A program made the position numbers and the translations under genes. The notes beneath the pieces are model-generated. The model had not been told where the DNA came from, did no database searches, and saw only the letters and a program-made list of their open reading frames with translations. Shown in pieces: positions 12,712 through 16,224 of a stretch of DNA of 64,000 nucleotides; position 1 is the stretch's first letter; every line of letters begins with the position of its first letter. The stretch comes from Phycisphaeraceae bacterium D3-23 (GTDB taxonomy: Bacteria; Planctomycetota; Phycisphaerae; Phycisphaerales; Phycisphaeraceae), in the NCBI GenBank assembly GCA_039555135.1, contig CP114179.1:248001-312000 (forward strand). The letters are read 5' to 3'.

Positions 12712-13917
12712 ATGACTACCCGACGTCTCCTGTTATCCGCACTTACGATGGCCTGTGCCGGTGCCGCCGGCTTGGCCAGCGCCGTTGACTTCGCCGACCC
12801 CGTCCGTATGGAAGCCGGCGGCGAGCCGATCAAGGTCGAAGCGCCCGGCTACGCCGCGCCTTGCTGGGCCGATGTCGATAACGACGGTGACAAAGACCTC
12901 CTCGTGGGTCAGTTCAACAGCGGCAAGATCCACGTCTTCCGAAACCACGGCGACGGCACTCTCGCGGCAGGCGAGTTCCTCGAAGCCGAGGGCGAAGTCG
13001 CCATCGTCTCGGGCGTATGGTGATGCACCAGTTCAACGCCACAGTTAGTGGACCTGAACAACGACGGCTTCAACGACATCCTCTCGGGCAGCTACTCCTG
13101 GGACAACCGTGAACTCGGCATGGCCGGCACCTTCCAGGTGCTCTACGGCGAGGACGACGGCACGTTCAAGAAGCCGATCAACCTCACCGGCTCCGACGAC
13201 AACGTGCTCATCATCCCCGCGACACAAGAGAACGTCATCGAGAAGATCTGCACCCGCCCCACCGCGACCGACTGGGACGGCGACGGCAACACCGACCTCA
13301 TCGTCGGCAACTTCGCCGGCAGCTTCTATGTCTTCAAGGGTGATGCCGACGGCAACTTCTACCCCGAGCCCGAACAGGTCAAGGTCGATGGCGAGCCGCT
13401 CATGGTCCCGGGCATGCACAGCGACCCGTTCGTGATCGACTGGGACGGCGATGGTGATATGGACCTGCTCAGCGGCTCGGCCCAGGGCGGCGTCTTCTTC
13501 GCCGAAAACACCGCGGGTGCCGGCACGACACCAGAACTCAAGGCCTTCGAGCAGGTCATCGAGCCCGCCGGCTACGCACAGGCCGGGGCAGGCCCGACCC
13601 CCACCGCGCCCGCCGGCTCAACCCGCATCTGGATCGACGATGTCGACGGCGACGGCAAGTTCGACCTCCTGGTCGGCGACTCGGCCCGTGTCGTCAGCTA
13701 CCCCGAAGGCATGACCCAGGAAGAGTCCCAGGCCCGCCAGGCCGAGTGGGATGAAACGACCCAGCAAATCATCGCCGAGATGCAGGCACTCCAGGCCGAC
13801 CCACAAAGCGAGGCGTACCAGGAAGTCATGCAGCGCTACCAAGCCCACTACCAGAGCCGCTCCGAGTTCATCCTCGAAGAAAGCACCGGCTTCGTCTGGC
13901 TATACGTCCAGCAGTAG
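12712..13917 (+). CDS. secreted FG-GAP repeat protein with in-frame UGA (candidate selenoprotein)
   Basis: A 401-codon frame that is continuous except for a TGA at codon 104 (13021-13023). A signal peptide occupies residues 1-24 (MTTRRLLLSALTMACAGAAG...). Five FG-GAP/VCBS calcium-loop repeats follow, for example DVDNDGDKDLLVG, DLNNDGFNDILSG, DWDGDGNTDLIVG, DWDGDGDMDLLSG and DVDGDGKFDLLVG, then a Gln/Glu-rich helical tail. The repeats lie on both sides of the TGA in the same frame, with protein-like sequence directly after it (GVW-UGA-CTSSTPQLVDLN), so this is not a frameshift. A SECIS-like hairpin sits just downstream. Either UGA encodes selenocysteine or the gene carries a nonsense mutation; conventional callers would split it at 13023/13048. 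Function probably extracellular binding or structure. Confidence 0.7.
13021..13059 (+). promoter_or_regulatory. SECIS-like hairpin after in-frame UGA
   Basis: Seven bases after the TGA, GTTCA (13031-13035) pairs with TGAAC (13055-13059). After a 3x3 internal loop, CCAC pairs with GTGG around the loop AGTTA. The loop begins 19 nt after the UGA and has G as its second base, both within the known bacterial SECIS consensus. The stems are short, so this is suggestive rather than proven. Confidence 0.4.
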
Positions 13918-13947: not shown

Positions 13948-13977
13948 GCCGGGCGACTTTAGTCGCCCGGCTTTTTT
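13948..13977 (+). terminator. rho-independent terminator of the FG-GAP gene
   Basis: GCCGGGCGACT and AGTCGCCCGGC form an 11-bp stem with a two-base loop, followed by TTTTTT, 30 bp after the FG-GAP stop codon. Confidence 0.85.
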
Positions 13978-14376: not shown

Positions 14377-16119
14377 CTAAAAATCATCATACGGGTCACG
14401 CGGCACAACGCGCGGCGTCGGGTCCGTCGGCTGCGACGTCTCGTCAGATTCCGCAGACGCCGCGCTGCCCGCGGACCCTGCGTCAGACTGCGCCACGACC
14501 GGAGGAGTCCAGGGCGGCAGCTCCTCGTCGTCATCCCCCGGGGCGCCGCGCAGCCCGCCGAACGCCACGGGCCGGATCGCAGGCGACTCGGCCGTGCCCG
14601 ACACGCGGTACGCCAACATCGAGTCGGTCAGCGCGCCGAATACGTCGCCGATCACCCCGAGCGTATCCTGCACCTTCTCCAGCGGGCCGGCATTGACCTG
14701 CACGTCCATCGACTGGTCGAAGAACACGTTGCCCCGCCCACGCACCGCGAACCAGCTCCCGACCAGCTCCATCTTGCTCAGGTAGGCGCGGTCGCCCCGC
14801 AGACGGAACGCGATCTCGGCGCGGTCGCGGCCGGCCGTCGCGTCCTCGGGCTTAGAGAGGTCCCCTGCCGACTCCATAAAGTCGATGATGTCTGAGATGA
14901 CCATGATGCGGGCGATGCGCCCCTGCCGGATCTCGAGCGTGCCCTCGCCGCGCAGCTCGGTCAATAGGAATGCCAACGGCCCGTTCGCGCTGAGCTGGAA
15001 GTCCGCGAGCCCCGCGTAGCGCGGCACGACTCCCTCGGCCGGGCGCAGCGTCTTCTCGATCGCCAGCCCGTTCCCGCCCAGCCGGAGGTCGAACGGGTAG
15101 CCCTCGGAGAGCCGAACCACCGCGTCGCCACGGATCTCGCCGTCGAAGATCTCACCCTCCAGACGGGTCAGCTCGACGACGCGTTCCTCCGACTCCGCCA
15201 CCAGCCGGAAACGCTCCGCCACGACGCGGTGCTCGCCGATCAAGGCATTGACCCCCGTCGCGGTCAGGTCGATATCGAGCGCCGAGTCCTGCCACGTCGC
15301 AAGGTCCAGCAGGCCCGACACACCCAGCACCACATCGCCCGTCAGGTCATAAGGCGCGATCAACGTCTGCACCGACTGGGGCAGGAACTGGTCGTGCTCG
15401 CGGTCGAGTTTCAGCTCAATGTCGACCGACGCGATCTGCAGCGTGAACGCGTCGATATCAAAGCCCGCCTCGATCGTCGCACCCAGCGCCGGCTTGCGGT
15501 TCAGATCGAGCGATAGCTGGTACACCCCGCCCGACTGCGCGTCGATGTTCAGGTCGGTCGTGATCTCATCGAACACCGTCGGCTGCGTCCCGGGGTCGCG
15601 CGTGTCCAGCACGACCTGCGCCTCGATCAGTGCCACGAGCTTGAGCTGCAGCACTTCACTCAGGGGCGGGGCCTCGGCGTCGGGCTCGGCTTTAACGAGC
15701 TGGCTAAACCCAATCAGCGGGCCGCCACCCTCCGGCGTCACCAGCCGGACGGTCGGCTTCTCCAGCGTCACACTCTCCACCACGATCGGCTTACCCATCC
15801 GCGGGAGCTCGCCCAGCGTGATGTGCATCGACTCGGCCTCGAAGATATTGACTTTTTTGCCCGGCGCGTCGGGGTCATCCGCGACCAGGCGGACACCGAG
15901 CAGGGTGACGCTGCGCGGGGCCTGGTAATCGACCTCGTCGAATTCGAGCTGCGGGATGAGGTAGCTGTTGAGCGTCGCCTTGACCTGCCTGCCGACCCAC
16001 GCCTCGAGCGGTGACTCGCCCACCCCGCCGATCATGTAGAAGACCACACCCCCGACCGCCGCGAGCAGAACAAAGAGGACGAGGACGGCCCAGAGCAATC
16101 GTTTTCCGGTCTTACGCAT
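14377..16119 (-). CDS. AsmA-like membrane-anchored protein
   Basis: A 580-residue protein with an N-terminal membrane anchor (LLWAVLVLFVLLAAVGGVVFYMI) and a long beta-rich periplasmic region. 'ALIEAQVVLDTRDPG' and 'LPRMGKPIVVESVTLEKPTV' resemble AsmA/DUF748-type sequences, which contribute to lipid transport or outer-membrane biogenesis in Gram-negative cells. The C-terminus is Ser/Ala/Pro-rich and probably disordered. The start MRKTGKRL at 16119 is favoured over a GTG at 16161 because the membrane anchor follows directly. It lies between dnaX and ybaB on the same strand, an unusual insertion into that pair. Confidence 0.65.
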   Translation of the reverse strand: MRKTGKRLLWAVLVLFVLLAAVGGVVFYMIGGVGESPLEAWVGRQVKATLNSYLIPQLEFDEVDYQAPRSVTLLGVRLVADDPDAPGKKVNIFEAESMHITLGELPRMGKPIVVESVTLEKPTVRLVTPEGGGPLIGFSQLVKAEPDAEAPPLSEVLQLKLVALIEAQVVLDTRDPGTQPTVFDEITTDLNIDAQSGGVYQLSLDLNRKPALGATIEAGFDIDAFTLQIASVDIELKLDREHDQFLPQSVQTLIAPYDLTGDVVLGVSGLLDLATWQDSALDIDLTATGVNALIGEHRVVAERFRLVAESEERVVELTRLEGEIFDGEIRGDAVVRLSEGYPFDLRLGGNGLAIEKTLRPAEGVVPRYAGLADFQLSANGPLAFLLTELRGEGTLEIRQGRIARIMVISDIIDFMESAGDLSKPEDATAGRDRAEIAFRLRGDRAYLSKMELVGSWFAVRGRGNVFFDQSMDVQVNAGPLEKVQDTLGVIGDVFGALTDSMLAYRVSGTAESPAIRPVAFGGLRGAPGDDDEELPPWTPPVVAQSDAGSAGSAASAESDETSQPTDPTPRVVPRDPYDDF

Positions 16120-16224
16120 AGCGGTATGGTAGGCGGGCGGGTGCGTCTGTGTTGATGACACGCGACGCCAGAACTCGTTGAGGCGCGGGTACCAAGGTTG
16201 AACCGCTTCTGCGGACCGACCGTT

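Follow-up and report, generated by a model that had tools for sequence, protein, structure and literature searches.

Does the in-frame TGA of an FG-GAP protein gene in Phycisphaeraceae bacterium D3-23 end the protein, or does it encode selenocysteine (Sec)? The gene lies in the window, by which we mean the whole stretch of 64,000 nucleotides that was analyzed. Its reading frame (positions 12712–13917, plus strand, frame 1) runs through 103 codons to a TGA at 13021–13023, continues with a TGC (Cys) at 13024–13026, and stays open until a TAG at 13915–13917. Read through, it encodes a protein of 401 residues with Sec at position 104, which is predicted to be a secreted five-bladed FG-GAP propeller. 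We conclude, with a probability of about 96%, that the gene encodes a genuine selenoprotein in which UGA codon 104 is decoded as Sec. This reading, proposed by the initial annotation, is supported by the sel genes of the host, by relatives with UGA or Cys at the site, by covariation in the stem of the hairpin that follows, and by a constraint on a wobble base.

The initial annotation had described FG-GAP repeats that continue in one frame on both sides of codon 104 and a Cys directly after the UGA, and translation and Pfam searches confirmed these features. Curated cutoffs are exceeded by FG-GAP_3 (PF13517; 81 bits) and FG-GAP (53.1 bits), and the PF13517 matches form four stretches lying on either side of the TGA. 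DxDxDGxxD repeats, which in FG-GAP proteins are calcium-binding loops, occur at residues 54–62, 114–122, 187–195, 243–251, and 310–318 (five loops); the calcium-type loop of blade 1 (residues 54–62) spans positions 12871–12897 and corresponds to conserved columns in a family alignment of 54 rows (A5). The N-terminal stretch (residues 1–24, positions 12712–12783), for which model confidence is low, looks by eye like an export signal, and we infer that the protein is exported. A terminator-like hairpin followed by T6 (13948–13977; picked out by eye and unscored) appears to end a single-gene unit.

Decoding of UGA as Sec depends on the selenium machinery of the host, and the initial annotation had suggested a search of the genome for selA, selB, selC, and selD. 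All four are present in the assembly, a single contig of 4,619,879 bases (4.62 Mb), so D3-23 is not a genome without sel genes. The selA (E = 6e-135), selB (360.6 bits; cutoff 242), selD (360.8 bits; cutoff 125), and tRNA-Sec (65.3 bits; cutoff 47) matches are clustered within C1:3621249–3629622. Among 14 control genomes, the cutoff was passed by selA in two, by tRNA-Sec in five, by selB in two, and by selD in two; because five of the 14 controls pass, tRNA-Sec is the match with the lowest specificity and is not decisive alone. The selD gene (L018:1438–1665) has an in-frame TGA of its own, in the context YADCGGUAGKL (CGGU), which provides independent evidence that UGA is read as Sec in the D3-23 genome.

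Folding reproduced the hairpin reported by the initial annotation at 13031–13059, with its loop starting 19 nt past the UGA and G at loop position two. The lower stem pairs 13031–13035 with 13055–13059, and a 4-bp upper stem (13039–13042/13048–13051) encloses the 5-nt loop AGUUA (13043–13047), the whole having a folding energy of −10.6 kcal/mol. Published bacterial SECIS (bSECIS) limits comprise a loop of 3 to 9 nt, a stem of 4 to 16 bp, G in the first two loop positions, a distance of 16 to 37 nt from the UGA, and a minimum free energy of −7.5 or lower (PMC13188914, legend of its Fig. 2), and the window hairpin falls within all of them. Shuffled sequences folded as well as the native one in 7 of 200 cases for a 38-nt fragment and in 8 of 200 for 45 nt, rising to 36 of 200 (61 nt) and 74 of 200 (101 nt) for longer fragments. 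The window contains 1549 TGA triplets when both strands and the TGA of codon 104 are counted; 426 of them (27.5%) satisfy a loose SECIS-like test, 206 (13.3%) satisfy it and also reach −10.6 kcal/mol, and seven (0.45%) have an identical loop geometry. Because more than a quarter of these triplets pass the loose test, the hairpin by itself is weak evidence, and we rejected it as stand-alone proof of Sec, a longer fragment also folding no better than shuffles. The geometry given by the initial annotation is correct; taken alone, the hairpin is only mildly unusual, and the case for it rests on covariation and on the wobble constraint. Judged by the aligned relatives, the comparison described below lifts the hairpin far above chance.

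The initial annotation had also proposed aligning homologues at residue 104, and in the family members read the site carries a TGA or a Cys codon. The nearest relatives in public genomes, from 76% down to about 25% identity, share this TGA with a Cys codon after it, two from Verrucomicrobia have Cys-Cys instead, and a paralogue in the same genome has a TGA in the same column (C1:690963–691238, minus strand). This paralogue (G000:C1:690342–691238, minus strand; L021–L023) belongs to another subfamily, with the motif NWUCTSLRPQ, and is 31% identical to the window copy in alignment A1. At the loci examined, Cys follows the TGA in all 63 family matches at the site. Removal of six duplicates leaves 57 distinct sequences, and 55 were used for pair counts after L036 and L057, which have a shifted hairpin, were set aside. 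Nine relatives (L033, L035, L108, and L134–L139) have Cys-Cys at the site. These nine were chosen from 16 Cys-Cys matches, the remainder being a second pair in each of L134–L139 (six matches) and one out-of-frame match in L088. In A5, which omits 13 of the 66 family genes (mostly cut, overlong, or divergent) and serves the tree and the structural model, the Sec column (read as Cys) and the Cys column are invariant, as are calcium-type loop residues and a few Pro and Gly residues. The finding that only Sec or Cys occurs at the site is partly built into the sampling, because the search profile (A2) had Cys in that column. Ordinary FG-GAP proteins carry other residues at the aligned site, and neither a UGA-Cys nor a Cys-Cys pair was seen among them.

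The second Cys-Cys pair of L134–L139, which come from six genomes of one genus, lies before blade 4 (HCCPVVADW or similar), and none of the Sec forms in A5 showed it. Some loci hold two copies of the gene, in tandem at L027:1609–4302 and approximately 3 kb apart at L149:1447–6997, and genome G416 has four UGA matches among those listed.

Selection on the RNA was examined in a gap-free 45-nt alignment (A4) of the 55 distinct UGA sequences. The family stem (columns 16–22/28–34) is paired in 86.8% of cells, compared with 27 to 43% when the partners are slid by one to three columns. Three measures beat shuffled alignments, namely paired cells (0 of 500 shuffles as good), cells changed on both sides (1 of 500), and a covariation score (5 of 500); the other two of the five, pairs changed on both sides (465 of 500) and further pair types (185 of 500), do not, and all covariation counts refer to sequences rather than to independent events. 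Pairs 19–31, 20–30, and 22–28 are kept in 55 of 55 sequences. Pair 21–29, the sole covarying inner pair, is A-U in 39, G-C in nine, G-U in five, and unpaired in two. The outer pairs 16–34 and 17–33 are formed in 31 and 34 of the 55 sequences, respectively; in the window copy, positions 16–18 of the family stem are unpaired, and a separate lower stem is present instead. The G-C form of pair 21–29 accompanies the replacement of GUG (Val) by GCG (Ala), which distinguishes nine genes from 46. In these genes, a protein change is matched to an RNA change, and the RNA structure seems tied to the residue change.

The strongest single test of RNA selection is the wobble position that closes the stem. 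Position 30 is G in all 55 Sec genes and in none of the nine Cys genes (p = 3.6e-11), whereas elsewhere among the repeats of the Sec genes the equivalent position is G in 28 of 72 cases (p = 3e-15 versus the Sec site); both p values treat related genes as independent. The hairpin of the Sec genes was not found in the three Cys forms that were folded. Folded singly, L107 and L118 gave good hairpins and L021 a moderate one (42 of 200 shuffles equal), and L068 folded no better than shuffles. The WOR-3 members L036 and L057 keep the UGA-Cys pair with a hairpin that seems to be shifted by one base, and the minimum-energy fold of L036 differs from the stem proposed for it. Based on these patterns of conservation, the comparison shows selection on UGA codon 104 as a sense codon and on the hairpin that follows it as RNA.

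The protein downstream of the UGA is conserved as well. Compared with the nearest relative (L024, from genome G371, a bin of Phycisphaerae [Planctomycetota] in the same genus), the gene has a dN/dS of 0.10 upstream of the UGA and 0.28 downstream of it (dN 0.17, dS 0.61). The comparison with L026, at high divergence, gives 0.46 and 0.63, and for L025 the synonymous count is saturated. Judged by these substitution rates, the region downstream of the UGA is under purifying selection.

A survey of the phylum with an 85-residue profile gave a match at 1e-6 in 152 of 392 genomes. Where the listed matches contain a stop, it is always a single TGA, with no TAA or TAG among the matches listed, and at least 93 of the 392 genomes, that of D3-23 included, have a UGA homologue. 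The stop-free listed matches better than 1e-20 come from G217, G210, G267, G414, G379, G328, and G418, and all seven have Cys-Cys. SelA exceeded its curated cutoff in 90 of the 93 listed UGA genomes and in 149 of the 299 others (Fisher p = 2.6e-19), where the 299 may include some genomes with a UGA gene, 93 being a lower bound, and where part of the SelA calls (those beyond the matches listed) were judged to be over the cutoff from the genome E-value. The three UGA genomes without SelA over the cutoff are all 77 to 82% complete, and two of them have SelB over its cutoff. The six Cys genomes that belong to a single genus show only weak SelA-family matches (E = 3e-10 to 8e-13). In a named collection, SelA was strong (E < 1e-60) in 12 of 12 UGA genomes and absent in two of two Cys genomes. 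Among 15 control genomes, hand-picked from other FG-GAP loci, SelA was strong in two and weaker but over the Pfam cutoff in four. UGA genomes differed from the 15 controls and two Cys genomes combined with p = 1.8e-6 for strong SelA and p = 3.9e-4 when weak matches were counted. The two surveys share at least two genomes, G371 (the source of L024) and G059 (the source of L029 and L037). Genome G217 has SelA, although the copy listed for it is of the Cys type. One selA match counted among the 90 (G355:C70:13854–15215) has two internal stops, one TGA and one TAA, and represents either a decaying gene or an assembly error.

These results bear on the readings in which no Sec is made. A plain nonsense mutation, which the initial annotation had named as the alternative, a pseudogene, or a sequencing error would account for a lone in-frame stop, at which a mechanical list of open reading frames splits the gene in two. 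Against all of these stand the recurrence of the UGA, which 57 distinct sequences and at least 93 of the 392 genomes surveyed in the phylum share, its exclusive use as internal stop among the matches listed, and the purifying selection past it; with an identical TGA in dozens of genomes, a base-call error is not credible. We therefore regard the nonsense mutation as excluded by the conserved UGA together with the conserved downstream frame, and give this group of explanations a negligible probability. Recoding without Sec exists in other systems, and UGA might instead be read through as another amino acid or serve as a deliberate truncation point. Against this speak the Cys found at the site in the nine family members without UGA, the use of TGA as terminal stop codon in 21 of the 66 family genes, and the tie between the UGA family and SelA. 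Truncation would moreover leave 103 N-terminal residues, which in the structural model amount to approximately one blade of five, and we consider these possibilities very improbable.

Sec forms make up the large majority of the family. On a quick tree built from 54 of the 67 family genes (the window gene plus 66), with support given as SH-aLRT and no bootstrap, three switches between Sec and Cys are required, and the starred branches by themselves impose three. UGA relatives extend beyond the phylum to Lentisphaerota (L025), WOR-3/Caldifarciminota (L036 and L057), and two unclassified bins. The window copy clusters with L025, from a Lentisphaerales bin, and with the copy from its own genus (98*; window and L025 alone, 82), and its position in the tree beside L025 suggests transfer or a mis-binned contig.

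The AlphaFold2 model based on the 54 aligned rows (pLDDT 91.8, pTM 0.89) has strands that repeat as five blade-like groups, the last of which contains a helical hairpin (residues 336–385, positions 13717–13866). The prediction of a five-bladed propeller is thus a confident one. Whole-chain comparison gave GH62 and GH43 five-bladed enzymes as top matches (Z up to 19.8, 264 residues, 3.5 Å), and Foldseek gave FG-GAP lectins (E = 4e-8, TM-score 0.36). We considered and rejected assigning a function from these matches, be it that of the lectins, for which the TM-score is low, or that of the glycosidases. The model does not have a thioredoxin fold, consisting mostly of β blades with a helical insert, and the motif is UC rather than UxxC or CxxU. 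In propellers, the position before the first, inner strand of a blade lies at the mouth of the central pocket. The Sec-Cys pair directly precedes the first (inner) strand of blade 2 and, by this general layout, would lie at the mouth of the pocket. At the equivalent site of the other blades (n = 54), His is common in blade 1 (32 sequences) and blade 4 (22), Cys in blade 3 (18), and Arg or Lys in blade 5; in none of these blades is a residue conserved throughout at that site.

The window gene stands alone, with glycosyltransferases upstream and YbaB and DnaX encoded downstream on the other strand. At 36 loci, a part of the family loci, no Pfam family occurred in more than two of 100 flanking ORFs. 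These 100 were taken from 112, the 12 left out being six of L036 (up to 239 residues), three of L025, two of L127, and one of L125. As no Pfam family recurs more often than this near the gene, the neighborhood gives no clue to function. Between ybaB and dnaX, the window contains an open frame of 594 residues (14377–16161, minus strand) with no Pfam match at 0.001, possibly a non-gene or an unnamed gene.

What would such a protein do? If decoding follows the established bacterial route, SelB carrying Sec-tRNA would bind the hairpin and insert Sec at codon 104, and translation would go on past the UGA to yield the 401-residue protein. The exported protein would fold as a five-bladed propeller held by five calcium-type loops, with the adjacent Sec and Cys before the inner strand of blade 2, probably at the mouth of the central pocket. 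There, outside the cytoplasm, the selenol could attack an oxidized substrate (a peroxide or a disulfide-like compound), and the neighboring Cys could resolve the intermediate as a selenenyl-sulfide. An extracytoplasmic redox site formed by Sec and Cys is in our view the likeliest function, a guess to which we give roughly even odds.

Two other functions, both with Sec inserted, deserve consideration. The Sec-Cys pair may be a ligand for a metal or organometal (copper, mercury, or nickel) in a protein for sensing or scavenging or in a copper-type oxidase. Several families with adjacent CU bear metal or organometal names (SaoL, HgcA, MbdU, and CopZ-like), and the Sec of SaoB, SaoC, and UXX-star may bind metals, according to PMC13188914. 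His is also common at the matching sites of blades 1 (32 of 54) and 4 (22 of 54), as is Cys in blade 3 (18 of 54), but these residues are not family-wide, and the Sec-Cys pair alone is conserved. A neighborhood of metal genes is likewise missing among the flanking ORFs, where Pfam recurrence is at most two of 100 and a single Ni-SOD occurs once. Metal binding, which stays close to the redox function because of the metal-linked names of several CU families, is a serious candidate that we nevertheless think somewhat less than probable. Alternatively, the pair might have a structural role, or it might be a lock, under redox control, on some other pocket activity such as the sugar binding or hydrolysis known from other five-bladed propellers. 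The closest shapes are indeed those of the GH62 and GH43 enzymes, and FG-GAP lectins come first in Foldseek. A likeness of fold shows no function, however, the glycosidase comparison concerns overall shape, and the use of Sec for a purely structural bond would presumably be costly; we find this reading unlikely.

The family apparently represents a large, undescribed group of secreted propeller selenoproteins spread over many Planctomycetes-type bacteria. Planctomycetes are known to have sel genes and selenoproteins, as stated in the available part of PMC4807772. Table 1 of PMC13188914 (May 2026) contains 119 prokaryotic selenoprotein families or subfamilies, none of which, compared by name only, is an FG-GAP, VCBS, or propeller entry; most characterized selenoproteins are thioredoxin-like in fold, according to the same source. 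None of the nine new families, as presented in the available part of PMC12013277, is of the FG-GAP propeller kind, and no FG-GAP propeller selenoprotein was seen in the available part of PMC9312934. NCBIfam release 20 contains no fitting model, its sole match reaching 15.5 bits against a cutoff of 999. A literature search by title and abstract found no family of FG-GAP or propeller selenoproteins, its scope lying outside the candidates in table S9 of PMC4807772, most subscription papers, and preprints.

Whether the family amounts to a new class of selenoenzyme is a question on which we are evenly divided. Such a class would comprise secreted, calcium-stabilized five-bladed propellers whose only family-wide chemistry outside the calcium-type loops is the Sec-Cys pair of the pocket, occurring, often in multiple copies, in other phyla and in about one-quarter of the Planctomycetota genomes sampled (at least 93 of 392), with a SECIS element powerful enough to have influenced the protein sequence. 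Should the family be real, FG-GAP genes in many Planctomycetota are shortened or misread where annotation treats UGA as a stop, and the use of selenium outside the cytoplasm has an extent that the sources searched do not record. The family also supplies dozens of natural SECIS elements together with Cys forms that serve as matched controls, so that what SelB of Planctomycetota requires of its RNA can be tested directly, and experiments could cleanly decide between redox and metal chemistry of the Sec-Cys pair.

The closest known systems share parts of this design. Ordinary FG-GAP proteins (PF13517 and PF01839) have repeats over the cutoffs and DxDxDGxxD loops in common with the window protein, whose family differs from the ordinary relatives examined in its UGA-Cys or Cys-Cys pair, its predicted closure by five blades, and its inserted helical hairpin. 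The fungal FG-GAP lectins of the PVL type (2bwm and 4up4) are the best Foldseek match (E = 4e-8), with a TM-score of just 0.36; these lectins are seven-bladed and are not known to contain Sec. The GH62 and GH43 five-bladed glycosidases (5b6s and 4o8o), which are not known to contain Sec either, resemble the protein in whole-chain shape (Z = 19.8) at 11% identity over 264 residues. SELENBP1 is a propeller that binds selenium and is not known to encode Sec. Likened to the window family by description, SELENBP1/methanethiol oxidase combines thiol and copper chemistry, as described in the available part of PMC10362175. The nearest parallel to the motif itself is found in the CopZ-like (GxUC/CU), HgcA (CU), SaoL (CU), and KCU-star (CU) families of Table 1 in PMC13188914, in which, as in the window family, an encoded Sec stands beside a Cys. 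Several of these Sec-Cys and Cys-Sec families are named for metals or organometals, whereas the window family would place the pair in a secreted FG-GAP propeller instead.
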